DNA of 64,000 nt, from positions 5,195,001-5,259,000 of the forward strand of contig NZ_CP136336.1 in the NCBI RefSeq assembly GCF_032681285.1. Direction: 5' to 3'. The DNA comes from Piscinibacter gummiphilus (GTDB taxonomy: Bacteria; Pseudomonadota; Gammaproteobacteria; Burkholderiales; Burkholderiaceae_C). Shown here piece after piece: positions 17,552 through 40,042 of the stretch. Position numbers and translations under genes: made by a program. Numbering within the stretch: position 1 is the stretch's first letter; each line of letters starts with the position of its first letter. The notes beneath the pieces are model-generated. The model saw only the letters and a list, made by a program, of their open reading frames with translations. It searched no databases and had not been told where the DNA came from.

Positions 17552-18058
17552 CTACTGGACCACAGGCGCGTCCGGCAGTTCATTGGGATTTGCCTCAGGG
17601 CCGGCCCAGGGGAAGTGGCGGTCGAGCATCTGGCTCACCGCGTCGACCGCCGCGTTGAGGCCGCCTTCGTAGTCGCCGCGCCGGAAGGCATCGGCCATGC
17701 CCTTGGTGAGGCCACGCCACTGCTCGGCACTCACATGCCGGTTGAGGCCGCGGTCGGCCACGATCTCGATCGCGTGCTCGGCCAGCAGCAGGTAGATGAG
17801 CACGCCGTTGTTGTGCTCGGTGTCCCACACGCGCAGCTTGCCGAACATCGTGACCGCGCGCTCGCGCGGCGTGGCGTTGCGCCACAGGTAGGACAAGGGC
17901 AGGCCCGCTTCGACGCAGATGCGGATCTCGCCGCTGTGGCCCCGCTCGCTTTGCGCGACACGCTGTTGCAGGCGCTTGAGCGTGCCGTCGCCTAAGGCCC
18001 GGCGGGCATCGGCCTCGTCGAGCCAACGGTGCTTGAGAATGCGCAGCCAACGGTTCAT
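17552..18058 (-). CDS. TPM-domain protein (YgcG/DUF5130-like), cytoplasmic or tethered form
   Basis: 168 residues from the ATG at 18058, which overlaps the preceding stop (TGATG); GTG and TTG codons just upstream are alternatives. The TPM fold is recognised by HSGEIRICVEAGLPLSYLW, RVWDTEHNNGVLIYLLLAEHAIEIVADRGLN and the C-terminal AFRRGDYEGGLNAAVDAVSQML. There is no signal peptide. TPM domains of plants (TLP18.3) have phosphatase-like activity and help photosystem II repair; bacterial roles are unclear. It sits in a LemA-TPM-TPM cluster, a very common arrangement. Confidence 0.85.
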   Translation of the reverse strand: MNRWLRILKHRWLDEADARRALGDGTLKRLQQRVAQSERGHSGEIRICVEAGLPLSYLWRNATPRERAVTMFGKLRVWDTEHNNGVLIYLLLAEHAIEIVADRGLNRHVSAEQWRGLTKGMADAFRRGDYEGGLNAAVDAVSQMLDRHFPWAGPEANPNELPDAPVVQ

Positions 18059-18960
18059 CACCAATCGCCCGAGGCACCGCCGCCACCGAAGTCACCGCCA
18101 CCGCCGGAGCTGAAGCCGCCGCCGTCGGAGCCCCCGCCCCAGCCGCCGCCACCTCCACCGCCCCAGATGATGGGCGCGCCGCCACCCCGCCGCGAGCCGA
18201 CGCCCATCACCCCCACGAGCACGAGCGCGACGAACGCCGCCCCACCGGCGATGAAGAGGCTCGTCGTCAGCCACCAGCCGAGGCCACCCGCCGCGCCGGC
18301 CGTGGCGAGAGAGCCGAGCTTGCGGCCAAACACCGAGGTGAGGATGGCGCCCGCGATCGGCACGCCGACGAAGAAGAAGATGGCGATGTCTTCGAGGTCG
18401 AAGCCGCTGCTGCCGCGGGCCCGCTCCGATGGCGACGCGCCCGGCTCCGGCAAGCCTTCGGTGCCGATGCGCTCGGCCAGCCGGTCCACCGCCGAGTTGA
18501 GGCCGCCCGCAAAGTCACCCGCGCGAAAGGCCGGTGTGATGCGGTCGTTGATGATCTGCTTGGCCGCCAGGTCGGGCACCGCGCCTTCGAGCGCCTTGGC
18601 CACTTCGATGCGCACCTTGCGGTCGTTCTTCGCGACGACGATGAGCAGCCCGTCGCCCACCTCGCGGCGGCCGATCTTCCAGCTGTCGCCGACCCGCTGC
18701 GCATACGCGGCGATGTCTTCCGGCTGCGTGCTCGCGACCATCAGCACCACGAGCTGCGAGCCGCGCTGGCGCTCGATGCCCTCGAGCTTGGCCGAAAGCG
18801 CCTGCACCTGCGCGGGCGTGAGCGTGCCGGTCTGGTCGATCACACGGCCCGACAGCGGTGGCACGGGCTGCACGTCCTGCGCCTGCAGCAGCGGCGAGGC
18901 CACCGCCAGCAGCAGGACGAAGAGCCACGCCAGAAAGCCCGCCAGAGACAGGCGCATCAC
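18058..18960 (-). CDS. TPM-domain membrane protein with Gly-rich tail (YgcG family)
   Basis: 300 residues. N-terminal signal (MRLSLAGFLAWLFVLLLAVASPLL), then a periplasmic TPM domain (residues about 38-160: LSGRVIDQTGTLTPAQVQAL, GSQLVVLMVAST, GDGLLIVVAKNDRKVRIEVAK, DFAGGLNSAVDRLAERI). Two hydrophobic segments follow (IFFFVGVPIAGAILTSVF and SLFIAGGAAFVALVLVGVMGV), and the end is extremely Gly/Ser-rich (residues about 265-300) and finishes GASGDW. This is the standard YgcG architecture. It starts 7 bases after the LemA stop and overlaps the second TPM gene, so the three form one operon. Confidence 0.88.
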   Translation of the reverse strand: MMRLSLAGFLAWLFVLLLAVASPLLQAQDVQPVPPLSGRVIDQTGTLTPAQVQALSAKLEGIERQRGSQLVVLMVASTQPEDIAAYAQRVGDSWKIGRREVGDGLLIVVAKNDRKVRIEVAKALEGAVPDLAAKQIINDRITPAFRAGDFAGGLNSAVDRLAERIGTEGLPEPGASPSERARGSSGFDLEDIAIFFFVGVPIAGAILTSVFGRKLGSLATAGAAGGLGWWLTTSLFIAGGAAFVALVLVGVMGVGSRRGGGAPIIWGGGGGGGWGGGSDGGGFSSGGGGDFGGGGASGDW

Positions 18961-18967
18961 GAGCCGC

Positions 18968-19579
18968 TTACTTCGAGGCCGGCTTGTCGAAGTTCACCGC
19001 CGGCGGCGTGGAGATCTGCGCCTCGTTCTGCACGGTGAAGTTCGGCTTCGGGTCGTAGTTGAAGACCATCGCAGTGAGATTGCTCGGGAAGCTGCGCGCG
19101 AGCACGTTGTAGTCGGCCACCGCCTTGATGTAGCGGTTGCGCGCGACGGTGATGCGGTTCTCGGTGCCTTCGAGTTGCACACGCAGGTCCTGGAAGCCCT
19201 GGTTGGCCTTCAGGTTCGGGTAGTTCTCGCTCACCACCAGCAGCCGGCTCAGCGCGCTGCTCAACTCGCCCTGCGCTTGCTGGAACTTGTTGAACGCTTC
19301 GGGGTTGTTGAGCGTCTCGGGCGTGACCTGGATGCTCGTCGCCTTGGCGCGCGCCTCCACCACCTTCGTGAGCGTCTCCTGCTCGAAGTTGGCCTCGCCC
19401 TTCACGGTGGCGACGATGTTGGGGATGAGGTCGGCGCGGCGCTGGTACTGGTTCAGCACTTCCGACCAGGCGGCCTTGGTCTGCTCGTCCAGGCGCTGGA
19501 AGTCGTTGTAGCCGCAGCCGCTGAGGCCCAGGGTGGCAGCAAGAGCGAGCGCGGCAAGCCAGAGTCGTTTGGTCGTCAT
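18968..19579 (-). CDS. lemA: LemA family lipoprotein
   Basis: 203 residues from the ATG at 19579, which has an AAGGA ribosome-binding site. The lipoprotein signal is MTTKRLWLAALALAATLGLSGC with lipobox LSGC. The LemA domain follows: NDFQRLDEQTKAAWSEVLNQ, QRRADLIPNIVATVKGEANF, NRYIKAVADYNVLARSFPSN. It is a coiled-coil helical bundle presumed to sit on the periplasmic face. Function is unknown; it is consistently linked with TPM/YgcG genes, as here. Confidence 0.93.
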   Translation of the reverse strand: MTTKRLWLAALALAATLGLSGCGYNDFQRLDEQTKAAWSEVLNQYQRRADLIPNIVATVKGEANFEQETLTKVVEARAKATSIQVTPETLNNPEAFNKFQQAQGELSSALSRLLVVSENYPNLKANQGFQDLRVQLEGTENRITVARNRYIKAVADYNVLARSFPSNLTAMVFNYDPKPNFTVQNEAQISTPPAVNFDKPASK

Positions 19580-19674: not shown

Positions 19675-20469
19675 ATGTCGCTGCTCCATGAAGCCCTGCG
19701 CGCCGGCCACGCCCCCGCGCCGCGCGCCCCCGCGGGCCCACGCGTGCTGGTGTGCGGCGGCGCCGGAGCCCTGGGCTCGGCGCTGCTCGAACAACTGCTC
19801 GCGGCACGGCGGCATGCGCAGGTGAGCGTGTTCACCACCCAGCCACTGCAGACCGGCCTGCGCGGCCTGCACACGCTCGCGTGGCACGAGCACGACCGCA
19901 CGCCGCTCGCGCCGACCGCGGTGGTGGTGTTCGACCGCGAGCGTGGTGTCAACGGACGCGAGCTGGCGTTCTACCGTCCGCAGCCCGAGCAGTTGCCTGA
20001 GCTTGCCGCGCAGTTGCATGCGCGCGGCGTGCGCCACCTGCTGGTCGTGATGCCGCACACCCAGGCCATGCTGCCCGAGGCATTGAAGCGTGGCCTCGCG
20101 AGCCTCGACGAACAGGCCGTGGCCGCGCTCGGCTTCGAGCACCTGGTCTTCGTGCGCTCGGCGCAGCCGCCTGACCGGGTGCAGCACGAAAACGCCGCCC
20201 AGCGCCTGGCGCACTGGATGCTCTCGCAGCTGCAGATGATGGTGCCCGAGCGGCAGCGGCCCGTGCGCGCCGCCAAGGTGGCCGCGTTCGCGGCCCGGCT
20301 GGCGGCGGTGCTGCCGCAATCGGCCCCCGGCACACGCGTGGTGCCGCCCGAGCTGATGTGGGACGCGAGCCAGGCCCGCAACGCCGCGGCCGTGGCCGAC
20401 GACTGGCTGGCCGGAAACGTCAGCGCCCCAACGCAGCCTGCGACGCCGCCACCGCCATCGCCACCTTGA
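19675..20469 (+). CDS. Putative NAD(P)-binding Rossmann-fold protein, function unknown
   Basis: 264 residues from the ATG at 19675. Residues 23-40 (RVLVCGGAGALGSALLEQ) form a beta-alpha unit with a GGxGxLG nucleotide-binding turn as in short-chain dehydrogenases and epimerases. Later strands (LLVVMPHT, HLVFVRSA) keep the Rossmann pattern. No YxxxK catalytic pair is evident, so it may bind but not turn over NAD(P). The C terminus is Pro-rich and its last 50 bases overlap, head-on, the end of the transglycosylase gene on the other strand. It is divergent from lemA. I do not recognise a named family. Confidence 0.7.
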   Translation: MSLLHEALRAGHAPAPRAPAGPRVLVCGGAGALGSALLEQLLAARRHAQVSVFTTQPLQTGLRGLHTLAWHEHDRTPLAPTAVVVFDRERGVNGRELAFYRPQPEQLPELAAQLHARGVRHLLVVMPHTQAMLPEALKRGLASLDEQAVAALGFEHLVFVRSAQPPDRVQHENAAQRLAHWMLSQLQMMVPERQRPVRAAKVAAFAARLAAVLPQSAPGTRVVPPELMWDASQARNAAAVADDWLAGNVSAPTQPATPPPPSPP

Positions 20470-21712
20470 GCGCGGGCGGCGGCGGGCGCCAGCGCCGGGC
20501 TTCCTTCACCAGCGCCTCGCGCTCGCGGCGCGACACCGGCCGCAGCTGATCGGCGACCCAGGCCACACGCGCCTGGTTCGCCTCGCCGTGTCGGCCCAGC
20601 TGCGCGAGTTCGCGGTCGGGGTTGTGCAGCAGCGTCGCGAGCCACACCGCTTCGACCGGCGTGAGCTGGGCCGCCGGTTTGCGGAAGAAGTGGCGCGCTG
20701 CGGCCTGCGCGCCGCACCGGCCATCGCCCCAGGGCGCGAGCGAGAGATAGAGATTGAGCTGCCGTGCCTTGCCGAGCGTGCGGTCGAGCTCCACGGCGTA
20801 GAGCAGCTCGCGCAGCTTGCGGCCGTGATGGCGGCTGTCGCCGGTGTAGAGCAGCTTCGCGAGCTGTTGCGAGACGGTGCTGCCGCCCGCGGTCATGCCC
20901 TCCTGGCGCTGGTTGCCGAACCACGCGGCCACGATCTCCTGCAGGTCGTATCCGGGGTGTTCGTAGTAGCGCTGGTCTTCTGCAGCAATCACGGCACGCG
21001 GCAGCCACGGGCCGAAGTCCGCCGTCGCCTCGCCGCAGGCGGGCTCGGCGTTCAGCAAGGCCTCGGTGCCCAGGCCCGAGACCAGCAGGCCATCGAGCCG
21101 GGGCTTGAACTCCCACGCGTGCGACGGCCACCGCCACTGCGCCTTCACGCTCACCCGCCCTTCGATGCGCGCCTGCGTGAACTCGGGGATGTCGCGCTGG
21201 AAAAGCGCGAACGCCCGCACCGCCGGCTCGTCGGCGATGCGGAACTGCAGCACCAGCTGCTGCCGCTCGATACGCGACGACCAGCGCCCCTGCAGCGGCT
21301 CTTTCCCCTCGCCGAGGGCGAAGTGGCCCTGCAGGTTCATCTCCATGTCGGGCACCACGGTGAACTCCACACGCGCGAGCCGCAGCGGCTCGCGCCCGAG
21401 CCCGCCCACCGGCAGCGTGCAAGGCGCGCACACCGCGCGCCAGGTGTTGGGTGCGTTGACCGCCTGCCAGTGCACGGTGCCGTAGCGCGTGCGGAACTGG
21501 CGGCCTTCCATCAGGCGCAGGGTGAAGGGGTGGCTCGCGATGCGCAGCAACGCGGGCATGCTCACCTCGCGCTCGAAGGGGCCGAGCTGCACCGTGCGTG
21601 TCCACTCACCCGGCGCCGGCTGCAAGGCCCGCAGGATGAAGAACACCGCCAGCGCCAGCCCCACGAGCAGCGCACACGACAAGCCGATCAGCCACTTCAG
21701 GATGGTTTTCAC
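20420..21712 (-). CDS. Biosynthetic peptidoglycan transglycosylase (GT51) with extra periplasmic domain
   Basis: 430 residues from a GTG at 21712 that overlaps the preceding gene. One N-terminal membrane anchor (residues 5-29) is followed by about 200 periplasmic residues without a motif I recognise, and then a GT51 domain from about residue 225. Catalytic Glu245 is in VIAAEDQRYYEHPGYD, and the second signature GGSTVSQQLAKLLYTGD is intact. No transpeptidase domain follows, so this is a monofunctional glycosyltransferase that would polymerise lipid II. Ordinary MtgA is about 240 residues and lacks the long middle domain. Last gene of the exosortase operon, which suggests a specialised role. 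Confidence 0.85.
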   Translation of the reverse strand: MKTILKWLIGLSCALLVGLALAVFFILRALQPAPGEWTRTVQLGPFEREVSMPALLRIASHPFTLRLMEGRQFRTRYGTVHWQAVNAPNTWRAVCAPCTLPVGGLGREPLRLARVEFTVVPDMEMNLQGHFALGEGKEPLQGRWSSRIERQQLVLQFRIADEPAVRAFALFQRDIPEFTQARIEGRVSVKAQWRWPSHAWEFKPRLDGLLVSGLGTEALLNAEPACGEATADFGPWLPRAVIAAEDQRYYEHPGYDLQEIVAAWFGNQRQEGMTAGGSTVSQQLAKLLYTGDSRHHGRKLRELLYAVELDRTLGKARQLNLYLSLAPWGDGRCGAQAAARHFFRKPAAQLTPVEAVWLATLLHNPDRELAQLGRHGEANQARVAWVADQLRPVSRREREALVKEARRWRPPPPALKVAMAVAASQAALGR

Positions 21713-22236
21713 AACGCCCTCGCCACGGTGACGGCCCGCCACGGGCCGGTGGACTGGCCGAGCGCCGCCGCCCAGAACCAGCTCGATGCATCGGTGAAGG
21801 CTTCGCCCTTCGCGTCGACGATGCGTTCGCACACGCGAATGCGCCGGCCTTCGCGCTCGGCGACGAAGCAGCGCCACAGCTGCGCCTGCGCATCGCGCTC
21901 CAGCCGCGCCTCGGCAATCGAATAGCCGAGGGCGCGGTAGCAGTCGGCCGCCGGGTGCAGCATGCGCGTGGGCTCGCGCACCTCGCGCAACACCAGCGTG
22001 CGCTCGCCGTCGGTCATGCGCGCGATGTGGCCCGGGAAGCGCGCGGCGAAGCGGGCCTCGAAGGCGCCCAGCGCGAGCGGGCGCAACGGGCGCCCCTCCC
22101 ACGCCACCGGCCACTCGGGCGCGACCGCAGAGCCGCGCGCACCGGCGTCGGCCTCGCGCCCGAGCGGTGCCAGGGCACACGCGGCGAGGCCCAGCACCAC
22201 GCCAAGACGGGCGAGCCAGGGGTCAGGCTTGCGCAT
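21709..22236 (-). CDS. EpsI-like exosortase-associated protein (tentative)
   Basis: 175 residues. The N terminus (DPWLARLGVVLGLAACALAPL) is a signal or anchor, and the rest is likely periplasmic. The segment REPTRMLHPAADCYRALGYSI, with His94-Pro95 and Cys99, resembles the motif of the EpsI/DUF3485 proteins that accompany exosortases; Cys123 in LWRCFVAE could pair with Cys99. It overlaps the exosortase gene by 14 bases upstream and the transglycosylase gene by 4 bases downstream, so all are translationally linked. The family call rests on a short motif and context, so it is tentative; the exosortase-accessory role is inferred. Confidence 0.6.
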   Translation of the reverse strand: MRKPDPWLARLGVVLGLAACALAPLGREADAGARGSAVAPEWPVAWEGRPLRPLALGAFEARFAARFPGHIARMTDGERTLVLREVREPTRMLHPAADCYRALGYSIAEARLERDAQAQLWRCFVAEREGRRIRVCERIVDAKGEAFTDASSWFWAAALGQSTGPWRAVTVARAL

Positions 22237-23062
22237 CGCGACCTCCCCGCATCACGCCCACCACACCGGCACACACCGCCACCAGCACCACCAGGCCCAC
22301 GCCCTGATGCACCGCATCGGACACCTGCGACTGCTGCGCTTCGAGCGCCACCAGCACGCTGTTGCGCACCACGTTTCCCACGAGCACCAGCGCGCCGACG
22401 GCCGGCAGGCGCGCCAGCATCGCGCGGTCGCGCACGCCGCTGAAGGCGGCCACCACGCAGGCGCAGAAGTACGCCATCCACACCATCTGCACGCCCGAGC
22501 ACGGCGCATCGACGATCACCTGCCGCCCCTGCACCCACATCGTGGTGCCGCTGCGCTCGGCGGCGAGGCCGGCGAGCTGCAGCAACCAGGTGCTGATCTC
22601 CGCGGTGACCACCCGCAGCGGATAGCCCGCATAGAACTGCAGCGACGACACCACCGGCAAGGCCAGCACCGCCAGGCCCGCCACCGGCAGCCAGGGCTGG
22701 CCCGAGGGCATCACGCTGCGCAAGGCCGTGGCGAGCGACAGCACCGCCAGCACCGCGCCGAGCAAGGGCGGCAGGTGGAAGAGCGCGAGCGTGGCCAGCG
22801 CCGTCAAGGCCGCGGCGGCGTAGACCCACCCCTGGCGAGGTGCGCCACGCAGGAGCGGCTCGCGCCGCACGACCCAGACCAAGAGCGCCGCCAGCGCCGC
22901 CAGGCCCAGCGGGTCGTCGGACCCATCGGCGAGCCGTGCGCCGGCCCAGCGCCAGTGCGGCCAGAGGGCGGCGGCGTGCAGCCCCAGCCAGGCCAGGGGC
23001 GACACCGACTCGAAGCGCGTCTGCCAACGCGCGAGGGGATGCAGTGCGATCGCGGTGGCCAT
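22223..23062 (-). CDS. Exosortase (membrane transpeptidase of the PEP-CTERM system)
   Basis: 279 residues, about eight membrane helices. The exosortase/archaeosortase catalytic triad is clear: Cys188 in VDAPCSGVQMVWM, Arg233 in VLVGNVVRNSVLVALE and His252 in DAVHQGVGLVV. Exosortases cleave and re-ligate proteins carrying a C-terminal PEP motif, helix and Arg cluster. The gene lies 3 bases after a protein with exactly such a tail, so enzyme and probable substrate are encoded side by side. It is shorter than the EPS-linked EpsH/XrtA type and has no fused EpsI domain; a separate EpsI-like gene follows. I cannot assign the subtype letter from sequence alone. Confidence 0.9.
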   Translation of the reverse strand: MATAIALHPLARWQTRFESVSPLAWLGLHAAALWPHWRWAGARLADGSDDPLGLAALAALLVWVVRREPLLRGAPRQGWVYAAAALTALATLALFHLPPLLGAVLAVLSLATALRSVMPSGQPWLPVAGLAVLALPVVSSLQFYAGYPLRVVTAEISTWLLQLAGLAAERSGTTMWVQGRQVIVDAPCSGVQMVWMAYFCACVVAAFSGVRDRAMLARLPAVGALVLVGNVVRNSVLVALEAQQSQVSDAVHQGVGLVVLVAVCAGVVGVMRGGRDAQA

Positions 23063-23065
23063 CGT

Positions 23066-25111
23066 TCACTCCTTGCGGCGACGACGCGACGGCCACACGC
23101 CGGCCACGACCACGCCAAGCACCACCAGCAGCGCGGCAATGGCCCCCGGCTCCGGCGTGCTCGGCACTTCGGCGCCGATGGCCTGGTCGCTCACGCCTTC
23201 GGGCAGCGGCGACGGCTGGTCAACCTTCTGCGTCTGCGAAGGGTCGGGGTTGCGCACGCGCTGGTCGACGGCGATGAAGCTCGTGTATTGCGTGAGCAGG
23301 CTGTAGGTGAGGCCGAGTTCGGTGATCTGCGCCTTCTGCGTGTTGCCGCCTTCGAGCGCCTCCTGGTCGCTCAAGGCCGCGATGCGCTGGCGCGCCCACA
23401 GCTGGCGCAGGGCCGACGGGCCCTTGCCGTCTTGCTGCGCCGTCAGCACCTGGCGGTACGGGCCATCGGCGGCGCGCCCTTCGATGACGAAGCGGCCCGC
23501 CCACGCACCGCGCCACTTGCCCATCACCACCACCGGGCGGCCACCCAGCACGTCGGGCAGTTGCAGCGGCTCCACGTCGTAGGTGTCGAGGCCTTCGAAC
23601 GAGGCCTTCACCTGCGTCAGCACCGGCGCCTCGATGATGCGGCGCAGGCGCTCGGCCTGCGCGGCGGCCTGCTCGGGCTTGGTGACGATGAAGGCCTCGC
23701 CCTGGCCGGCACGCGCCATGCCCTCGATGAGGTGGCGGTTCACGCTCGTGCCGATGCCGAACGAGAACACGTTGAACTGGTTGAGGTTCTGGCGGATGAG
23801 GCGGAACACCTCGGCCTCGACGCTCACGTAGCCATCGGTCACGAAGATCACGCTGCGCGACACCTCTTCGGCCTTGGGCAGCGCGGCCACGCGCTTCAGG
23901 GCCGGCACGATCTCGGTGCTGCCGCCACCGCCCATCTCATGAATCGTGCGGATGGCCTGATCGATGTTGGCGCGCGTGGCCGGCACCGACGCCGGCGCGA
24001 GCATGCGGCTGCTGCCGGAGAAGAGCATCACGTTGAAGGTATCGCTCGGGCGCAGGCTGCCGATCAGATTGCGCAGCAGCACCTTGGCGGTGTCGAGCGG
24101 GTAGCCGTGCATCGAGCCCGAGATGTCGACCACGAAGATGTAGTCGCGCGGGTTGATCTGGCGCGACGCCACCGCCTTGGGCGGCTCGACCATCGCGAGG
24201 AAGAAGTTCTCGTCGCCCTCGCCCTCCCCGCGGTACAGCACCAGGCCCGACTCGATGCGGTCGCCGGCCAGGCGGTAGTTCAGGATGAAGTCGCGGTTGT
24301 TCGCCGGCTTCTCAGTGGGTTTGAGCGAGACGGCGACATGCGTGCTGCCCAAGCCGTCGATGACAAGCTCGTGCGAGGGCGAGGCGATCTCCTTCACCAC
24401 GAGCGGCGTGTCGAGCGACACGCGCAAGGCGAAGGAGGCGTTCGACGCGACCCCCTGCTTCAGGTACGCACCCCCGATGGCGCCGCCGTTGCCGGCCGCC
24501 GCGGCGGGGCTGTTGTAGCGCGGGCCCACCACCGTGGGGAAGACGAAGCCGTATTGCGCGTCGGTGGGGCGCAGCAGCTCGGTGTAGCGAAGCTCCACCG
24601 CCACGTCGTCGCCGGGCAGGATGTTGGCCACGTTCATCTCGAAGACGTTGGGCCGGCGCTGCTCGAGCAGCGCGCTCGTCTTGCCCTCGCGCTTGGCGGC
24701 CTGGTATTCGATGCGGGCCGCTTCCTTTTCCTTGATGCGCGCGGTGAGCACCCGGTCGCCGAGCGTCACCTTCATCGCGTAGACGGCGGCCTGCGTAGAG
24801 CCCGGGAAGACATAACGCGCCTCGATCGGGCGCTGGCCTTCGTTGCGATAGTGCTGGGTCACCGTCACGTCGGCGATGACCCCGGCGATCTTCACGTCGA
24901 CCGTGGTCGACTTGAGCGGCAGGCGGTCGGTGCCGGGCTCGTGGCTGTTGACGGCGAAGTACGGGCTCTCGGGCTTGAGGGCTTCCGAGTCGTCGGCGTG
25001 GGCCGGCGACCAGAACAGCATCAACAGCGCCGAGAAAAGCGCGAGCGCCATGCACCACAGCACACGGCCGGTGCGGCTGAGCGGTTGATAGGGGATGAGC
25101 GGGCGTGACAT
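23066..25111 (-). CDS. VIT and VWA domain protein with PEP-CTERM sorting tail
   Basis: 681 residues from the ATG at 25111, preceded by AGGAGAGG; a longer form adds six codons. Signal peptide residues 13-39, VIT (inter-alpha-trypsin/vault) domain about 50-185, and VWA domain about 322-500 with an intact MIDAS: DISGSMHG (Asp329, Ser331, Ser333), STEIVPAL and FVTDGYVS. The C terminus, from residue 652, reads TPEPG, then a hydrophobic helix, then WPSRRRRKE, which is the tripartite PEP-CTERM signal. Similar VIT/VWA proteins in marine proteobacteria carry sortase signals instead; here an exosortase gene follows 3 bases later. Expected role: an envelope-anchored, metal-dependent adhesion or binding protein. 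Confidence 0.9.
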   Translation of the reverse strand: MSRPLIPYQPLSRTGRVLWCMALALFSALLMLFWSPAHADDSEALKPESPYFAVNSHEPGTDRLPLKSTTVDVKIAGVIADVTVTQHYRNEGQRPIEARYVFPGSTQAAVYAMKVTLGDRVLTARIKEKEAARIEYQAAKREGKTSALLEQRRPNVFEMNVANILPGDDVAVELRYTELLRPTDAQYGFVFPTVVGPRYNSPAAAAGNGGAIGGAYLKQGVASNASFALRVSLDTPLVVKEIASPSHELVIDGLGSTHVAVSLKPTEKPANNRDFILNYRLAGDRIESGLVLYRGEGEGDENFFLAMVEPPKAVASRQINPRDYIFVVDISGSMHGYPLDTAKVLLRNLIGSLRPSDTFNVMLFSGSSRMLAPASVPATRANIDQAIRTIHEMGGGGSTEIVPALKRVAALPKAEEVSRSVIFVTDGYVSVEAEVFRLIRQNLNQFNVFSFGIGTSVNRHLIEGMARAGQGEAFIVTKPEQAAAQAERLRRIIEAPVLTQVKASFEGLDTYDVEPLQLPDVLGGRPVVVMGKWRGAWAGRFVIEGRAADGPYRQVLTAQQDGKGPSALRQLWARQRIAALSDQEALEGGNTQKAQITELGLTYSLLTQYTSFIAVDQRVRNPDPSQTQKVDQPSPLPEGVSDQAIGAEVPSTPEPGAIAALLVVLGVVVAGVWPSRRRRKE

Positions 25112-25269
25112 GGATCCTCTCCTGGGCAAGCCACCGGGCGGTGGTGGTGAGAAGAGGATCGGCGCCGTGCTCGAAGCCGGTTTGAAGCCTGAGAGCGGCT
25201 GTGTGAAGACTGCGTGAACGGCAAGACAGCCGCGATACTGGCGCCTCGATCAACCCGGAGGAGACCCTG

Positions 25270-25503
25270 ATGAAACACCTGATCCTGTCGGCCACCCTGC
25301 TGGCCCTCGCCACCCCCACGTTCGCCGCGAGCAAGCCTTGCGACGAGCTGAAGACGGAGATCGCCGCCAAGCTCGACGAGAAGAAGGTCACCGGCTACAA
25401 GCTCGACATCGTCGACACCGAGAAGGTGGGTGACGCCAAGGTCGTGGGCAGCTGCGACGGCGGCAAGAAGAAGATCGTCTACGGGCGCGCCGCCGCGAAG
25501 TAA
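25270..25503 (+). CDS. DUF1161 family small periplasmic protein
   Basis: 77 residues. Signal peptide MKHLILSATLLALATPTFAA, then SKPCDELKTEIAAKLDEKKVT and VGSCDGGKKKIVYGR, the complete DUF1161 pattern with two cysteines that probably form a disulphide. A GGAGGAG ribosome-binding site precedes the ATG. Function unknown in all members. It is divergent from the VIT/VWA gene, with about 160 bases between the starts holding both promoters, and convergent with creC. Confidence 0.88.
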   Translation: MKHLILSATLLALATPTFAASKPCDELKTEIAAKLDEKKVTGYKLDIVDTEKVGDAKVVGSCDGGKKKIVYGRAAAK

Positions 25504-25511
25504 GGCACGCC

Positions 25512-26951
25512 TCAGGCGCCGCCGTCGCCCAGCGGCAGGCTGAGCGTGGCCAGCGCGCCGCCCCCCGGCGCGTTGGCCAGCGTGACGCGGCCTTCATGCA
25601 GCTCGGCGATCTCCTTCACGAAGGGCAGGCCGAGCCCGGTGCTCTTCTTGCGCGACTGCGGCCGCGCGAGCGAATAGAACTTCTCGAACACCTTGTCTCC
25701 GGCGTAGTCGGGGATGCCCGGCCCGTGGTCGCGCACCGTCAGCTCGGCCTGGCGGCCCTTGCGGTGCAGCGCCAGGGTCACGGTGCCACCGGCCGGCGAG
25801 AAGTCAAGCGCGTTGTCGACGAGATTGGAGACGGCACGCTGCAGCAGGAAGGCATCGCCTTGTACCGTGGCGTCGTCGCCGTCTTCCAGCACCACCTGCA
25901 GGCCGCGCGCCGCCGCGGCGGGCTGCACGCTCGCCACCAGCTCCTGCAAGAGCGCACGCAAGGGCACGGCCACCGGCGCGTCGAGCGTGCGGCGCGATTC
26001 GAGCGCGGTGAGTTCCATCATGCGATCGACCAGCTCCTGGATGCGCTGCGTCTCGCGCACGATGTTCGCCACGAAGCGTGCGCGGTCGGCATCGGGCATC
26101 GGCTCTTGCAGCAGCTCGGCGGCACCGCGGATCGCCGAGAGCGGGCTCTTCACCTCATGCGTGAGCGTCTGCACGTAGTCGGCCACGTAGTTGCGGCCGG
26201 CGAGCGCATCGCGCATCTCGTCGTAGGCCGCGCCGATCGCCTTCAGCGCACGCCGCGTGAGCCGCGGCAGGCTGAAGCTGCGCTGCGCCTTCACGTAGCG
26301 CACGTAGTCGGCCACCACGCCGAACGGCCGCACCAGCCACACCGAGAGGATCACCACCAGCAGCAGCACCGCCACCACCGAGGTGGTGCCCACGAGCAGC
26401 GTCTTGCGCCGCGCCGCCTGCACGAACTGGCCGAAGCTCTGCACCGGCTTGCCCACGCTCACCGCGCCGACGATGGCGCCACCCACGCGGATGGGTGCCG
26501 CCACGTACATCACCGAGCTGCTGGCGTCACCTTCCACGTCGGGCGTGGTGCGCGCGCCGTACTCGCCCTGCAGGGCACGGCGGATGTCGCGCCAGAGCGA
26601 GTGGTCGGCGCCGAGCGAGCGGTTGGTCGAATCGAACACCACCGTGCCGCCCCGGTCGACCACCGTCATGCGCAGCTCGACGCGGGTCTTCTCGAAGCCG
26701 TAGATGTCGGCCTTGAAGCGGCGCGCGTAGAGCGCCTGGAACACCGGGCCGAGGGCCTCGACCTGCAGCGTGCCGTCGCGCGACGAGCCTTCGAGCAGGG
26801 TCGCCATCAGCTGCGCGGTCTCAACCAGGTTTTCCTCGGCCGACTCGCGGTAGCGCGGGTCGATGTCCTGCAGCTGCCGGTACATCAGGAGGCCTACGCC
26901 GATGGCGTAGGCCAGGAGGATCCCGAGGAAGATCCGGGTGCGTTTGCTCAC
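25512..26951 (-). CDS. creC: Two-component sensor histidine kinase CreC
   Basis: 479 residues, matching E. coli CreC (474). Membrane helix near residues 8-25, periplasmic sensor domain (about 30-185), second helix (VVAVLLLVVILSVWLV), HAMP-like linker, then a HisKA box with phospho-acceptor His in TLTHEVKSPLSAIRGAAEL. The HATPase domain shows N box SNLVDNALDF, G1 VRDHGPGIPD and G2 STGLGLPFV. CreC responds to growth-medium changes and to acetate/fermentation state in enterics. Its start overlaps the creB stop (ATGA), giving translational coupling. Confidence 0.92.
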   Translation of the reverse strand: MSKRTRIFLGILLAYAIGVGLLMYRQLQDIDPRYRESAEENLVETAQLMATLLEGSSRDGTLQVEALGPVFQALYARRFKADIYGFEKTRVELRMTVVDRGGTVVFDSTNRSLGADHSLWRDIRRALQGEYGARTTPDVEGDASSSVMYVAAPIRVGGAIVGAVSVGKPVQSFGQFVQAARRKTLLVGTTSVVAVLLLVVILSVWLVRPFGVVADYVRYVKAQRSFSLPRLTRRALKAIGAAYDEMRDALAGRNYVADYVQTLTHEVKSPLSAIRGAAELLQEPMPDADRARFVANIVRETQRIQELVDRMMELTALESRRTLDAPVAVPLRALLQELVASVQPAAAARGLQVVLEDGDDATVQGDAFLLQRAVSNLVDNALDFSPAGGTVTLALHRKGRQAELTVRDHGPGIPDYAGDKVFEKFYSLARPQSRKKSTGLGLPFVKEIAELHEGRVTLANAPGGGALATLSLPLGDGGA

Positions 26952-27649
26952 ACGGGCAAGGCGGGCGGGAGGTCTTCAGCCAGCGCATAGCCGCTGCCGC
27001 GGTGCGTGCGGATCGGCTCGAGCGTCGGCGCCACCGTCTTCATCTTGGCGCGCAGCGTCTTCACGTGGGCATCGACGGTGCGGTCCAGGCTCTCGGTGTC
27101 GTCGCCCCACACGCGGGCCAGCAGCGTGTCGCGGCTGAACACATGGCCGGGGCGCGAGGCCAAGGTCTGCAACAGGCCGAACTCGTAGCGAGAGAGTTCG
27201 AGCGGCTTGCCGTAGAAGCGGATCTGGCGTTTGCCGTCGTCCACCACCAGCGGCAATGCCGGCGCCGCAGGGGCCGCGGCCGCCTTGGCACTGCGCCGCA
27301 GGATGGAGCGCACCCGCGCCACCAGCTCGCGCGGCGAGAAGGGTTTGGCCACGTAGTCATCGGCGCCGAGCTCCAGGCCGACCACGCGGTCGATCTCGTC
27401 GCTGCGCGCGGTGAGGAAGACCACCGGCACATCGGCCACCTCACGCAGGCGCTTGAACACCTCGAACCCGCTGGTGTCGGGCAGGCCGACGTCGAGGATC
27501 ACCAGGGCCGGCGGCTGCACCTTGAACTGCGACAGCGCCTCCTCGCCCGTCGCGGCCCAGGCGGGTTCGAACCCGTCCGTCCGCAACGCGTACTGCAACG
27601 TGTCGGCGATGCCGGGCTCGTCCTCGACGATGAGGACCCTGGGCTTCAT
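26948..27649 (-). CDS. creB: Response regulator CreB (OmpR/PhoB type)
   Basis: 233 residues. Receiver domain with the acidic pair in IVEDEPG, phospho-acceptor Asp in [13 protein letters not shown], Thr in [10 protein letters not shown] and Lys in [13 protein letters not shown]. The C-terminal winged helix (residues about 135-225: [54 protein letters not shown]) binds DNA. It overlaps the cysK stop upstream and the creC start downstream, each by four bases, so cysK-creB-creC is a single coupled operon. Confidence 0.93.
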
Positions 27650-35113: not shown

Positions 35114-38100
35114 TCAGGCGGGGGCTCTGACCTGGTTGCGGCCCTGCCGCTTGGCCTCGTAGAGTGCGGCGTCGGCCACTTCGATCCAGTGCGCGATGCT
35201 GGTCGACGCCGACGGCACGAAGGCCGCGATGCCCACGCTCACGGTCACGATGCCGTGCGGAGATGCCGCATGCGGCTCGCGCAGCTCGGCCACCTGGCGG
35301 CGCAGGCGCTCGGCCACCGCCTGCGTGCCGGCGAGGTCGGTGTTGGGCAGCACGAGCGCGAACTCTTCGCCGCCGTAGCGCGCCGCGAGGTCGGCGGCCA
35401 CGCGTTGACCATCCTTCAGCACCGCGGCCACGCGCTTCAGGCAGGCATCGCCGCCGAGGTGGCCGTAGTGGTCGTTGTAGAGCTTGAACTGGTCGACGTC
35501 GATCATCGCGAGGCCGATCGGGGTGCCGGTGCGCAGCGCACGCTTCCACTCGGCGTCGATCACCTCGTTGAAATGGCGGCGGTTGGCCAGCCCCGTCAAC
35601 GCATCGGTGATCGCGAGCATCTCCAGTCGCCGGTTGGCCTGCTCCAGCGCCTCGGTGCGCTCGGCCACCTTGTGCTCGAGCGATGCGTAGAGCATGGCGT
35701 TGTCGAGCGACACCGCCAGCTGGCCGGCGATGAGGTTGACCGCATCGAGCCGGTGCGCCGAAAAGGCGCCGCGGCTCTGCCGGTTCTCGAGCAGCAGCAC
35801 CGCCCGCAGCTCGCCCTGGCTCTGGATGGGCACGGCCAGCAGCGAGCAACGTGCCAGGCCGGCGAAACAGGCCTCGCCGCCGAAACGGTCGTCGAGGGTC
35901 ACGTCGTCCACCACCAGCGGCTCGCGCAGGCGCTGCACGTAGCGGAAGGCCGACAACGCCAGCAGCCCCTCGGCGGCCGCCTCTTCCACCGGCAGGCCGG
36001 CGCTGCCTTCGGCGGGCACGCGCCAGCCGTCGCCGAGGCCGCCGAGGTCACCGCCGCGCATCACGAGCGTCACGCGGGTCGCGCCGGTCAACGCGACGAG
36101 CAGCTGCTGCACGCTCGCCTGCAGGCTCTGCAGGCTGGTCTCGGAACTCAGGGCCTGCGAGGCGCGCAGGATGGCCAGCATGTCGATCTGGTCGGCCAGG
36201 TTGCCGGTGCTCGAGCCGGTGCTGCGGCGGCGCTCGCGCGGCATCGCGGCCGCGCCATGCCGCAGGAACTCGTGCGTGTCGCGCAGCTGCTGCACCTTGG
36301 CGACGGCGCCCCAGGCCTCGTAGGCGGCGAGCGCTTCGGCCATCAGCTGCTGGCCGTAGGCCTCGAGCCCATGCTGCGACAGGTGGAAGCGCGCGCAGCG
36401 CTCGGTCATCAGCGCGTGGTGCCAGGGCCGGCGCTGGCGCGCAACTTCGCGCCGGGCCTGCTCGAAGCGGCGTGCGGCCTGCCAGCCATCGCCCAGGGCC
36501 CAGGCACGTTCGGCCTCGACCCAGGTGTGCAGGTGCTGGAAGTTGCCCGGCGCATCGGCGGCCCGCTCGGCCAGCCAGTCGCGGCAGGCGTCGAGCTCGC
36601 GCAGCGCGGGCAGCGGGTCGGCGGGGCCGGCCTGCAGCTCGGTGGCGAGTGCGAGCGCGCGCAGCAGCTGCGCCTGCACCGCGCGGTAATTGCCCTGGCG
36701 CGCAGCGAGCGGCATCGCCGCGGCGGAATGCTCGGCCAGCGCCGCACGGTCGTGGAAGAGCGCTGCCGCGAGTGCACGGTCGATGTGATACGCCGAGCGC
36801 GGCACCGGGTGCGCGCCGGGGCCGGCCAGGTGCTCGGCTTCGCTGAAACCGGCCTCGTCGAAGCTGCCCGGTGCGGCGGTGTGGCCCAGCAACGCGCGCA
36901 CCAGCTGACGGTAGGCCACGACGGTGGCGATCGCGTGTGCGTTGCCCACGCGCTGGCCGAGTGCATCGGCGGCCTCCACCTCGGCGGCCAGCGTGTGCAG
37001 GAGCGGCGTGCTGTCGAGCTGCAGCGACAAGGCCGCGCTGTAGGTGAACGAGGCCGTCATCAGCGAGCCGTGCGCAAGCAGCCCCTCGCGCGCCTGCTGC
37101 AGCATGCGCAGGCCGGCCTCGACCGGCTCGAACCAGTGCATCGCGAAGGTGGGCAAGGTGTTGCGCAGCTGCGAGCCATAGGGCTCCAGCTGGCGTGCTT
37201 CGGCCACGCGCAGCGCGTGGCGCACGGCGAGGTAGCCGGTGCGGTAGTCGCGGTACAGCGACACGGCCACCACCGGGCTTTGCCCGAAGGCCGTCATGAG
37301 ACCCGGCAACGGCCCGTGCGCGGCCCACAGCCGATGGGCAGCGTAGATCACCTTCTCGAGCACCTGCGGCCCGCAGAAATACGCGGGCGGCGAGACGCGG
37401 TGGATCACGTTGGCCGCAGCCAGCACGTGGGCATCGGTGGCCTCGGGGCGCGCCAGGTCGGCGGCGAGGTCGAGCGAGTCGACCCACTGCTTGAACGCCG
37501 GCCAGTCGGCGCCGCCGCCCTGCGGCGCGAGGCGTTCGAGCAGGCGCATGCCGAGTTCCACCGCATCGGCCTGGCGGCCGCGGCTGGTGAGGCTCGTGAG
37601 GCGCAGGCCGGCGGCGTCGCTCACGCGCAGCGGGTCGCTGCAACGGGCTTCGATCTCGCGGTAGACCTCGTCGAGCTGCTCGTGGCGGCCCAGGCAGTAG
37701 AGCGTGCCGACGTGGTGGGTGCGCAGCGTGAGCAGCGGGCCCTGGTCGGCCTCGCTCTCCACCCGCGTGCGCAGTGCGATGGCGGCACTGAAGAAGCGCT
37801 CGGCCAGGGCGTAGTTGATGCGCTCGGCCTGCAGGCCCACGGCTTCGAAGAGCGAGGCCGCACGGCGGCACTCGTCGGCCTCGTGCAGGTCGTCGGCGAC
37901 GATGAGGTACTGCTCGGCGGCCACGCCCTCCCACGCCGCGTGGGCCGCGAGGCGTCGTGCGAGACCCAGGTGGCGGGCGCGTTGCGAGGCGAGGTCGAGC
38001 CGCGCGTAGGCCGCCTGCTGCACACGGTCGTGGCGGAAGCGCAGGGCGTTGAGTTCGGTGCCGCGGCGCTCCATCACCAGCAGGCCGTCTTCGAGCGCGG

Positions 38101-40042
38101 GGGCGGCGCGCGCATGCAGGGCCTCGGCATCGAGGCCCACCGCACAGCCGAGCAGGCCGAACTCGACTTCGCCCGACAGGCAGGCCATGGTTTCGAGCAG
38201 GTGGCCGGTGGGCGCGGGCAGGCGGCCCATGCGGCGCTGGAGGAGGTCCACCACTTCGCCGCGGCCCACGTGGCGGCGGATCGCGGTGGCATCCCACTGC
38301 CAGCCGCCCTCGCCCTGCACGAGCGCGCCGTCGTGGCGCAGCGCGTTGACGAGTTCGACCGTGTCGAAGGGGTTGCCGCCAGTGCGCTCGCCCACCACTT
38401 CGGCCAGACGGGCCGCGCCCTCGGGCGGAAGGCGCAGCATCTCCTGCAGCAGCGCGCCCAGGTCGGCCGGTGCGAGGTTGCGCAGGGCGAGCCGCGCGGG
38501 CGAGAGGCCATGCCGGTCCCAACGCTCGAGCATGGGCGTGAGCGGGTGCGCCACGTCGACCTCGGCCTCACGGTACGCGCTCACGAGCAGGAGCCCGCTC
38601 AGGCCTTCGTCGGACAGCAGCGCGTCGACGAACTTGATCGAGCCGGGGCCGGCCCATTGCAGATCGTCGATCACCATCACCACCGGCCGCAGCGGCGAGG
38701 CGATGGCGCGCATCAACGCCACGCCCGACTGGTACAGGCGTGCCTCGGCGATGAGCGGGTCACCGCTCGGCGCCTCGGGCGCCACGCCGAGCAGGGCCGC
38801 GAACTCGGGCAGCACGCCCGCCACCAGGCCGGCGTTGGCACCGAGCGAGCGCAGCAGCTCCTGGCGCAATGCGGCGAGTTCGCTCTCGGGCTGCGACAGC
38901 AGCAGCCGCCCCAGGGAGCGCATCGCCTGCAACACGGCGCTCGCCGCCACGTCGCGCCGGCACTGGTCGAACTTGCCCGAGACGAACCAGCCGCGCCGCG
39001 CGGTGACCATCGGCCGCAGCTCGTTGATGAGCGTGGTCTTGCCGACGCCGGGGGCGCCGGCCACCATCACCGCGCGGGCCTCGCCGCGCAGCGCTCGATC
39101 GAAGGCGGCGCGCAGCACGCCGATCTCGGCCTCGCGGCCGACCAGGCGCGATGGCGCGGCCAGGCGCGGAGGAAAGTCACGCTCGCCGAGCGCGAAGGGC
39201 TGGCGGTCGCCACGGGCCAGCCGCTCGGCCAGCACGGCGAGGTCGTGCGCCAGGCCCTCGGCGCTCTGGTAGCGGCGATCGGCGTCTTTCTCGAGCAGGC
39301 GCATGACCAGGTCAGACAGCGCAGGCGGCAGGCCGGGCGAGAACGCCGAGGGCGCGGACGGCACACGCGCCAGGTGGTCGTGGATGAGCTGCAGCGGGTC
39401 GTGGCCGCTGAAGGGCGGCTGGCCGGCCAGCATCTCGTAGAGCGTGGCGCCGAGGGAATAGAGGTCGGCGCGCTGGTCGACGCTGCGGCCGGTGCGGCCG
39501 GTCTGCTCGGGCGCCATGTAGGCGAGCGTGCCTGCGATCTCGCTCTGGTGGCTGAAGCTCGGCGCTTCTTCGGCGAAGCTGCTGGCGATGTCGAAGTCGA
39601 TCAGCACCGGCCGCCGCTGCGCGCCGACGAGCACAATGTTGGCGGGGTTCAGGTCGCGGTGCACCACGCCCCGTCGGTGCACGTCGGCAAGCACCCGCGC
39701 AAGGCCGAGGCCGATGTGCAGCACCTCGGTCACACCGAGGCGCTCGTCGCGCAGCACCTGCGCCAGCGAGACGCCACCGTCGTCGTGCAAGACCAGCAGG
39801 TCGGGCGTGGGCGCTTCGGCGGCCAGGCGCGGCACGCCCTCGACGCCGGCCAGGCGCTGGAGCATGGCCGCCTCGTGGCGCAGGCGATGCAACGAATCGC
39901 CGCTGAAACCTTGCTTGAGGATAAGCGAGCGGGCCCCGTGCAAGCGGCGCCGCAGCACCCGGGTGCGCTCGCTCTGCGACAAGACTTCGTCCACGCCGCC
40001 ATGCGGGGCGTCGTCGGGCGAGGTGGGGTTTAAGGCCGCCAT
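35114..40042 (-). CDS. Giant signalling protein: Ser/Thr kinase - AAA ATPase - GAF - diguanylate cyclase
   Basis: 1642 residues. N-terminal protein kinase (about 25-270) with Lys43, Glu57, HRDLNPAN (Asp130) and MAPEQ; the activation loop starts DFD (149-151) instead of DFG and no GxGxxG loop is visible. Next is a STAND/AAA-type ATPase with Walker A GAPGVGKTTLINEL (about 335-350) and Walker B VVMVIDDLQWAG, then a long helical-repeat region (about 620-1290). A GAF domain (about 1330-1470) and a C-terminal GGDEF domain with active-site GGEEF (about residue 1560) complete it. The RxxD inhibitory site is not in register (RVAAD). Architecture is like HstK-type sensors, with a cyclase replacing the histidine kinase. 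Probably cytoplasmic. Confidence 0.88.
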   Translation of the reverse strand: MAALNPTSPDDAPHGGVDEVLSQSERTRVLRRRLHGARSLILKQGFSGDSLHRLRHEAAMLQRLAGVEGVPRLAAEAPTPDLLVLHDDGGVSLAQVLRDERLGVTEVLHIGLGLARVLADVHRRGVVHRDLNPANIVLVGAQRRPVLIDFDIASSFAEEAPSFSHQSEIAGTLAYMAPEQTGRTGRSVDQRADLYSLGATLYEMLAGQPPFSGHDPLQLIHDHLARVPSAPSAFSPGLPPALSDLVMRLLEKDADRRYQSAEGLAHDLAVLAERLARGDRQPFALGERDFPPRLAAPSRLVGREAEIGVLRAAFDRALRGEARAVMVAGAPGVGKTTLINELRPMVTARRGWFVSGKFDQCRRDVAASAVLQAMRSLGRLLLSQPESELAALRQELLRSLGANAGLVAGVLPEFAALLGVAPEAPSGDPLIAEARLYQSGVALMRAIASPLRPVVMVIDDLQWAGPGSIKFVDALLSDEGLSGLLLVSAYREAEVDVAHPLTPMLERWDRHGLSPARLALRNLAPADLGALLQEMLRLPPEGAARLAEVVGERTGGNPFDTVELVNALRHDGALVQGEGGWQWDATAIRRHVGRGEVVDLLQRRMGRLPAPTGHLLETMACLSGEVEFGLLGCAVGLDAEALHARAAPALEDGLLVMERRGTELNALRFRHDRVQQAAYARLDLASQRARHLGLARRLAAHAAWEGVAAEQYLIVADDLHEADECRRAASLFEAVGLQAERINYALAERFFSAAIALRTRVESEADQGPLLTLRTHHVGTLYCLGRHEQLDEVYREIEARCSDPLRVSDAAGLRLTSLTSRGRQADAVELGMRLLERLAPQGGGADWPAFKQWVDSLDLAADLARPEATDAHVLAAANVIHRVSPPAYFCGPQVLEKVIYAAHRLWAAHGPLPGLMTAFGQSPVVAVSLYRDYRTGYLAVRHALRVAEARQLEPYGSQLRNTLPTFAMHWFEPVEAGLRMLQQAREGLLAHGSLMTASFTYSAALSLQLDSTPLLHTLAAEVEAADALGQRVGNAHAIATVVAYRQLVRALLGHTAAPGSFDEAGFSEAEHLAGPGAHPVPRSAYHIDRALAAALFHDRAALAEHSAAAMPLAARQGNYRAVQAQLLRALALATELQAGPADPLPALRELDACRDWLAERAADAPGNFQHLHTWVEAERAWALGDGWQAARRFEQARREVARQRRPWHHALMTERCARFHLSQHGLEAYGQQLMAEALAAYEAWGAVAKVQQLRDTHEFLRHGAAAMPRERRRSTGSSTGNLADQIDMLAILRASQALSSETSLQSLQASVQQLLVALTGATRVTLVMRGGDLGGLGDGWRVPAEGSAGLPVEEAAAEGLLALSAFRYVQRLREPLVVDDVTLDDRFGGEACFAGLARCSLLAVPIQSQGELRAVLLLENRQSRGAFSAHRLDAVNLIAGQLAVSLDNAMLYASLEHKVAERTEALEQANRRLEMLAITDALTGLANRRHFNEVIDAEWKRALRTGTPIGLAMIDVDQFKLYNDHYGHLGGDACLKRVAAVLKDGQRVAADLAARYGGEEFALVLPNTDLAGTQAVAERLRRQVAELREPHAASPHGIVTVSVGIAAFVPSASTSIAHWIEVADAALYEAKRQGRNQVRAPA

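Follow-up and report, generated by a model that had tools for sequence, protein, structure and literature searches.

A dedicated exosortase Q sorting operon with predicted CreBC control in Piscinibacter gummiphilus

We analyzed a 64,000-nucleotide window of the Piscinibacter gummiphilus genome (contig NZ_CP136336.1, positions 5,195,001 to 5,259,000) and found a four-gene operon that is probably a dedicated exosortase Q (XrtQ) sorting operon controlled by CreBC, a two-component system for peptidoglycan stress. The operon encodes a VIT/VWA surface protein with a PEP-CTERM tail, XrtQ itself, an EpsI-like protein and a GT51 transglycosylase. The genes creB and creC (27649-25512) lie directly upstream, both over the equivalog cut-offs of their models, and an exact cre-tag, the published type of CreB binding site, stands on the VIT strand 91 bases ahead of the VIT ATG. 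The presence of the tag in the promoter and of creBC next door suggests that the sorting system is switched on by cell-wall damage. The features concerned are the following, in window coordinates.

23066..25111, minus strand: VIT/VWA surface protein with PEP-CTERM tail, predicted XrtQ substrate (Pfam domains, MIDAS-type residues, tail)
23069..23194, minus strand: C-terminal sorting tail with VPSTPEP, a hydrophobic stretch and RRRR (span used in the tail alignment)
22223..23062, minus strand: XrtQ with C188/R233/H252 (NF012182, 372.3 bits, cut-off 270)
21709..22236, minus strand: EpsI-like protein (match to the C-terminal part of the exosortase T model)
20420..21712, minus strand: GT51 peptidoglycan transglycosylase with a GTG start (Transgly/PF00912 domain)
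26948..27649, minus strand: CreB response regulator (NF008296, 317.6 bits, cut-off 273)
25512..26951, minus strand: CreC sensor histidine kinase (NF008312, 587.1 bits, cut-off 356)
25203..25218, minus strand (VIT coding strand): exact cre/blr-tag TTCAC-N6-TTCAC, predicted CreB site (motif match)

The exosortase and its substrate

The first-pass annotation of this DNA had described the four genes as one minus-strand operon, and the coordinates agree: the gaps from VIT/VWA through exosortase and EpsI to GT51, read from the sequence, are 3, –14 and –4 bases. Pfam scores were 124 bits for VIT, 67.7 for VWA_3, 100.9 for Exosortase_EpsH and 137.3 for Transgly. Exopolysaccharide (EPS) genes, said earlier to be missing nearby, were indeed not found among 20 scanned window proteins (55 genes were called in the window).

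The enzyme passes the model of the named exosortase Q family as well as the general exosortase/archaeosortase signature TIGR04178 (38.6 bits, cut-off 23), and it falls far under the cut-offs of the XrtN, XrtT, XrtO, XrtA and EpsH subfamily models. Both the canonical EpsH exosortase (TIGR02602; 30.8 against a cut-off of 105.55) and XrtN (TIGR04476; 50.3 against 200) were rejected as its identity. The catalytic Cys-Arg-His set, previously called intact, is unvaried in alignments of 7 and of 39 sequences, the window's included. Judged from its sequence, XrtQ would cleave or transfer the PEP-CTERM tail. The EpsI-like protein matches the exosortase T model only in the EpsI-like C-terminal part of that model (32.8 bits) and is fused to XrtQ in several relatives. 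It had no Pfam match, and its predicted structure, a confident model, had no Foldseek match at E≤0.001.

XrtQ exceeded its cut-off in 5 of the 399 genomes of the order covered by a first search, the window's included; weaker matches in 10 more are in some cases probably other exosortases. Linkage was counted in the best 80 of 264 relatives from a scan of named genomes. Loci L055 and L074 come from the same genomes as L031 and L032, and each genome was counted once: L055 and L074 were used for the linkage, tag and distance counts and L031 and L032 for the tree, while the count of creD neighbors includes L055 and leaves out L074. A VIT/VWA gene adjoins XrtQ in 78/78 loci with at least 1.5 kb of upstream sequence (within the 6 kb searched), and all 74 loci that extend 2.5 kb or more downstream have EpsI close by or fused. 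Of the 61 loci reaching at least 9 kb upstream, 53 have a same-strand CreC-type kinase there.

In the VIT/VWA protein, the VWA-domain residues D329, S331, S333, T399 and D426 are unvaried in seven aligned sequences, consistent with a metal-binding metal ion-dependent adhesion site (MIDAS). The PEP-CTERM tail proposed earlier was borne out by the comparison of relatives, with PEP in 43 of the 43 tails examined and TPEP in 41. The Pfam PEP-CTERM model did not report the VIT tail at E≤1 and had no match anywhere in the window. The name "marine sortase target" (TIGR03788) was rejected for the protein, which scores 430.5 against a cut-off of 551.65 and ends in VPSTPEP, not in an LPXTG-type tail.

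A genome-wide PEP-CTERM search, suggested in the first-pass annotation as a check, gave a mixed answer. Seven other genes, all outside the window, exceed the Pfam cut-off, and the VIT gene is thus not the sole PEP-CTERM gene of the genome. Besides XrtQ, however, the genome encodes two further exosortases, both XrtB (304.6 and 296.3 bits, cut-off 275), and these could serve the seven ordinary PEP-CTERM genes. We built a VIT tail model from an alignment of 40 tails. The model ranks the VIT protein first in all seven genomes tested, with 48 to 86 bits, in searches that are not exhaustive in count (scoring covered 150 of 230 candidates in G000, the genome of the window, 150 of 184 in G171, 150 of 198 in G264, 150 of 205 in G350 and 150 of 236 in G387). 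Five of the ordinary PEP-CTERM genes of this genome score 17 to 25 bits, as expected of XrtB targets.

Among 11 other genomes searched for exosortases, six (G171, G350, G279, G764, G775 and G770) have no exosortase besides XrtQ, and the tail model was applied to the first three of these. In each of them, no scored candidate other than the VIT protein shows a clear PEP tail, as would be expected of the self-contained system with one dedicated substrate envisaged in the first-pass annotation. The runner-up matches (16.1, 13.5 and 13.2 bits) begin past the PEP columns. G171 has one further match, of 14.9 bits, that spans these columns and lies inside a 1037-residue frame. The pairing of XrtQ and VIT/VWA thus looks one-to-one in the genomes tested. 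Separately, the genome of the window encodes a second, distant VIT-domain protein (991 residues; G000:C1:437099-437425 (+), L042:6926-9901), located far from all three exosortase genes.

The cre-tag and CreBC

Passages in two studies give the binding site of CreB and its homolog BlrA as the cre/blr-tag TTCACnnnnnnTTCAC (PMC3660660; PMC4689548). The search for it covered 78 loci whose upstream sequence spans 300 bases or more (73 from named genomes, the window and 4 further genomes) and left out loci without a VIT match or with a shorter upstream sequence (e.g., L048, L049, L060, L106 and L113). Although 37 of these loci are from Variovorax, the tag was seen in 14 of the 15 named genera. An exact tag on the same strand, within –350 to +45 of the VIT model start, was found in 72/78 loci where 0.04 loci are expected, and the VIT upstream interval holds 80 exact sites against 4 elsewhere in 3.15 Mb strand-bases. 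The opposite strand and the reversed motif each gave no exact site at the 78 loci. The distance from tag to start codon, with start codons chosen by script, has a median of 106 bases and quartiles of 93-109. The tag is far better conserved than the neighboring upstream positions, and the aligned sites yield a longer consensus, cTTCACACAG(A/G)CTTCACACAG.

Of 22 genomes encoding XrtQ or an XrtQ relative (a count that leaves out L091), 21 have a CreC over the cut-off, the exception being Panacagrimonas, which also lacks the tag. In several genomes creBC lies further away on the same strand, at distances of 11 kb (G775), 12 kb (G773), 17 kb (G182), 21 kb (G387) and 45 kb (G264). Sigma-54 control, as in classical PEP-CTERM genes, was rejected as an alternative, the strict pattern occurring in 1/78 upstream regions; the test is weak, with only one of the seven ordinary PEP-CTERM genes positive.

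Genome-wide, the 5.94-Mb genome holds four exact tags (two for the reversed control). Two are intragenic and were set aside as chance, and the two intergenic ones precede the XrtQ operon and a murA paralogue (G000:C1 about 2361181-2362455 (+), L175:1647-2921), in the latter case about 130 bases upstream of the gene. The encoded protein scores 322.2 bits against the PRK09369 cut-off of 297 but stays under that of TIGR01072; from its tag, it is predicted to be a second CreB target, in peptidoglycan synthesis. The creD gene of this genome, located ~350 kb from the operon, is immediately preceded by two one-mismatch tags that overlap. With the extended motif and at most one mismatch, eight sites were found (control 0): four intragenic, again set aside as chance, and four ahead of the XrtQ operon, the murA gene and creD. 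In other genomes, tags precede creD (441.6 bits, cut-off 275) and a VanW-like gene in G264, a CreD-like gene in G387 (judged by eye) and, in G093, which lacks XrtQ, a CreD-like gene adjoining creC (named by eye). The VanW-like gene (PF04294; L210:482-1636 (–)) has its exact tag about 45 bases upstream.

Several observations weigh against CreBC control of the operon. Six of the 78 loci have no exact tag: L033, L044, L091 and L101 have a one-mismatch tag in its place, L052 has only a two-mismatch site, and in L036 two exact tags precede an extra first gene instead of the VIT gene. Genome G279, to which L033 belongs, has CreC, and yet its operon tag carries the mismatch. Over 16 genomes, exact tags number 82 against 38 for the reversed control, only about a twofold excess, and G234, G294 and G323, all without CreC, have 3 to 6 exact tags each. 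CreBC is present in 5/8 same-family genomes without XrtQ and is thus not dedicated to it. In 38 loci, the tag region is common to VIT and a divergent creD, and eight of 74 operons lack the GT51 gene considered below. Finally, the functional CreBC literature drawn on concerns other genera, and in Stenotrophomonas maltophilia CreBC is described, in part of one paper, as lowering creD promoter activity (PMC4689548), such that the sign of CreB control of the XrtQ operon is unsafe to assume. With tag numbers as such unremarkable, the case for CreB rests on the position and strand of the tag, on its conservation before VIT and on creD sharing the motif.

A simpler explanation would be an ordinary dedicated cassette of exosortase and substrate, with CreBC and the tag belonging to creD or other neighbors. 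CreBC is indeed a general regulator and occurs without XrtQ, and in 38/80 loci (the window and 79 named ones) creD is divergent from the VIT gene, as seen in Variovorax, Xenophilus and an Ottowia. The tag, however, lies on the coding strand of VIT at a distance that varies little, and within the shared region of the 38 creD loci the strand coding for creD never comes closer to the motif than two mismatches. A further 34 of the 78 loci carry the tag but contain no creD; in the genome of the window, creD is remote and has near-exact tags of its own. The tag is also kept in L034, L035, L056 and L085, where creBC is 11-45 kb away. We consider this explanation very unlikely.

Throughout the OmpR/PhoB family, binding sites typically consist of direct repeats with an 11-base step, and the tag could therefore be read by another OmpR-family regulator that responds to a different signal, e.g., phosphate or envelope stress. 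The exact tags of the three genomes without CreC fit such a regulator. Against it, the half-site is the published CreB/BlrA half-site, as given in passages of the two papers (PMC3660660; PMC4689548), the motif recurs ahead of creD here and in G264 and ahead of the CreD-like genes of G387 and G093, and the sole XrtQ genome without CreC is also one where the exact tag is missing. This makes a different regulator highly improbable, and CreBC control remains our preferred reading.

Some loci around the tag deserve separate mention. The extra first gene of L036 (6300-7145 (+)) encodes 281 residues with weak VIT similarity and has its two exact cre-tags adjacent to each other. L052 (Panacagrimonas perspica), which lacks GT51, tag and CreC, has an XrtQ on a long branch inside the Rhizobacter/Piscinibacter group, possibly a transfer that escaped CreBC control. 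A PBP1A-family gene is found in 45/80 loci and a NagZ-like gene, whose product scores under the cut-off of its model, in 18/80, in Variovorax only; in L031 and related Variovorax loci, creD, the NagZ-like hydrolase and the PBP1A-family protein are divergent to the operon, forming a cell-wall island around creBC. The operon, creC and the tag occur together in L079, L082 and L083, from the soil species Variovorax paradoxus. In the window, the tag lies between the VIT gene and a DUF1161 gene and might serve both.

25270-25503, plus strand: DUF1161 gene, divergent to the VIT gene
17552-19579, minus strand: LemA and two TPM-domain genes, downstream of the operon

Several Rhizobacter and Piscinibacter loci likewise have LemA and a TPM gene on the downstream side of their XrtQ operon. 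Elsewhere in the window, 35114-40042 (–) encodes a 1642-residue protein with Ser/Thr kinase, AAA ATPase, GAF and GGDEF domains.

The transglycosylase and a proposed mechanism

The transglycosylase has both a PF00912 domain over the cut-off and the GT51 fold, and it has at its N terminus an additional beta domain (residues about 38-215) with an invariant C95-x-x-C98. The monofunctional transglycosylase MtgA (TIGR02070) was rejected as its identity (128.6 against 182.65). The co-occurrence table that the first-pass annotation had proposed, complete for VIT and EpsI, is incomplete for this gene: GT51 lies at most 6 kb from XrtQ in 66/74 loci (at least 2.5 kb of downstream sequence) and is unlinked within this distance in eight, which rejects it as an obligatory partner; in L100 a GT51 match is found ~10 kb off, at the end of the stretch. 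In a tree of 87 XrtQ proteins, GT51 presence (75/86) changes at least eight times. The tree is a quick one in which some long branches meet, and it was used for this count only. The gene is present in two early-branching operons, L035 and L036, and missing near XrtQ in the Azoarcus group, Panacagrimonas, Curvibacter and others, where VIT, XrtQ and EpsI stay. With its presence in early branches and loss elsewhere, GT51 looks like an old but dispensable member of the operon; as a partner, it is frequent but dispensable.

The linkage had earlier been read as a sign that sorting is coordinated with local wall synthesis. In its strongest form, GT51 would work with the exosortase, e.g., by making the glycan that receives the sorted protein, and sorting and local wall synthesis would be mechanically coupled. 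The frequency of the linkage, the early-branching operons and the conserved extra periplasmic domain with its CxxC all speak for such coupling, whereas the repeated absence of GT51 from operons that keep the three other genes speaks against it. Furthermore, if the operon answers wall stress, co-regulation by CreB accounts for the presence of GT51 without a joint reaction with the exosortase, and we regard the mechanical coupling as unlikely. The better argument for a link to wall synthesis is the CreBC regulator together with the tag, both overlooked in the first-pass annotation, whose interpretation is overall partly supported.

Under the CreBC reading, CreC would sense disturbed peptidoglycan metabolism and phosphorylate CreB, which would bind the cre-tag upstream of the VIT gene and turn on VIT/VWA, XrtQ, EpsI and GT51 together. 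The VIT/VWA protein would be exported by its signal peptide and retained by its PEP-CTERM tail until XrtQ, a Cys-Arg-His membrane enzyme, cuts the tail and the protein is released or transferred to the cell surface; GT51 would contribute glycan synthesis to the same CreB response. The expected signal is modeled on Pseudomonas aeruginosa, in which, according to passages of one study, loss of PBP4 specifically activates CreBC and cefoxitin induces creD (PMC2654508); a passage of another sums up CreBC signals as metabolic signals or peptidoglycan stress (PMC4689548).

Beyond sorting, we infer a function in answering wall stress. One bolder version sees XrtQ as a stress-induced anchoring enzyme: the package that CreBC turns on after peptidoglycan damage would make new glycan via GT51, and XrtQ would transfer VIT/VWA, cut from the PEP-CTERM tail, to this glycan or its lipid carrier. 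The CreB-tagged MurA paralogue may, in this genome, join the glycan-making package. We find this version distinctly unlikely; if true, it would be a Gram-negative counterpart, for wall repair, of sortase anchoring to lipid II. The roles of exosortases on their targets and of VIT/VWA surface proteins are poorly known. This system comprises a single enzyme with a single substrate and a single helper, and its predicted inducing signal comes with a published binding site; it should therefore be inducible, with genes that can be removed singly.

Comparison with known systems

The components are partly known. XrtQ is named in NCBIfam, and the enzyme of the window shares with that family (NF012182) the score over the cut-off and the Cys-Arg-His set. 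The model covers nothing but the enzyme. Added here are the VIT/VWA protein as its constant partner, the GT51 gene and the predicted CreBC control, though the family notes of NF012182 may mention the partner. The occurrence of VIT/VWA proteins with an exosortase is in print as well: passages of one study describe family members with GlyGly-CTERM, with LPXTG and a dedicated sortase, or with PEP-CTERM and an exosortase (PMC3237569). The earlier suggestion that the same surface-protein family is here handled by a different sorting enzyme is thus supported, and was already published.

Canonical PEP-CTERM/EpsH (XrtA/XrtB) systems share the enzyme superfamily, the PEP tail and the EpsI companion. 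As described in parts of one paper, they are mostly found among exopolysaccharide genes, act on many targets and frequently carry an upstream site of the sigma-54 type (PMC1569441); the operon studied here has one target, no EPS gene among the scanned neighbors and a CreB tag. The XrtN system (TIGR04476/TIGR04477) also combines an exosortase with a VIT-domain target but differs in its enzyme, given the low XrtN score in the window.

The CreBC/BlrAB regulon with creD is matched by creBC over the equivalog cut-offs, by the tag at 25203-25218 and by a near-exactly tagged creD, with CreB-dependent expression of the operon as the prediction. Members of this regulon described in the passages seen are creD and beta-lactamases, and a protein-sorting operon is, as far as we found, new to it. 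Among the matches listed by our literature search, which covered few subscription journals, none linked an exosortase, PEP-CTERM or VIT protein to CreBC. If the prediction is true, the CreBC response extends, beyond creD and beta-lactamases, to the sorting of surface proteins and to glycan synthesis.

The closest analogy is the class D sortase system (sortase TIGR03784, VIT target TIGR03788, histidine kinase TIGR03785 and response regulator TIGR03787), which shares the VIT/VWA family, the relation of one enzyme to one target and the adjacent two-component system. Here, PEP-CTERM stands for LPXTG and an exosortase for the sortase, and the regulator is CreBC proper, scoring 120.0 of 612.2 bits on TIGR03785 and 139.1 of 335.7 on TIGR03787. 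TIGR03788 was matched in 69/369 sampled genomes of the class, and 20 chosen VIT neighborhoods were compared. Eight of them (L165-L172) have sortase-type tails, as judged by eye, and no cre-tag; their sortase genes were not searched for, and in L165, L166, L168 and L172 a CreB-model match nearby reaches just 122-127 bits. In L162, creBC, the tag, VIT and a fused XrtQ-EpsI occur together. In L156, L157 and L158, which have no tag, the exosortases paired with VIT are highly divergent (23-40 bits), and the other eight neighborhoods have neither an XrtQ-like match nor a tag. In two loci with XrtQ relatives, L037 and L038 (about 128 bits), the tag stands ahead of a large gene upstream of the exosortase; the gene of L037 is VIT-like and resembles the XrtN target, although below the cut-off (114.6 of 250). 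The coupling of a dedicated sorting enzyme with a VIT target and a two-component regulator thus seems to recur with different parts.

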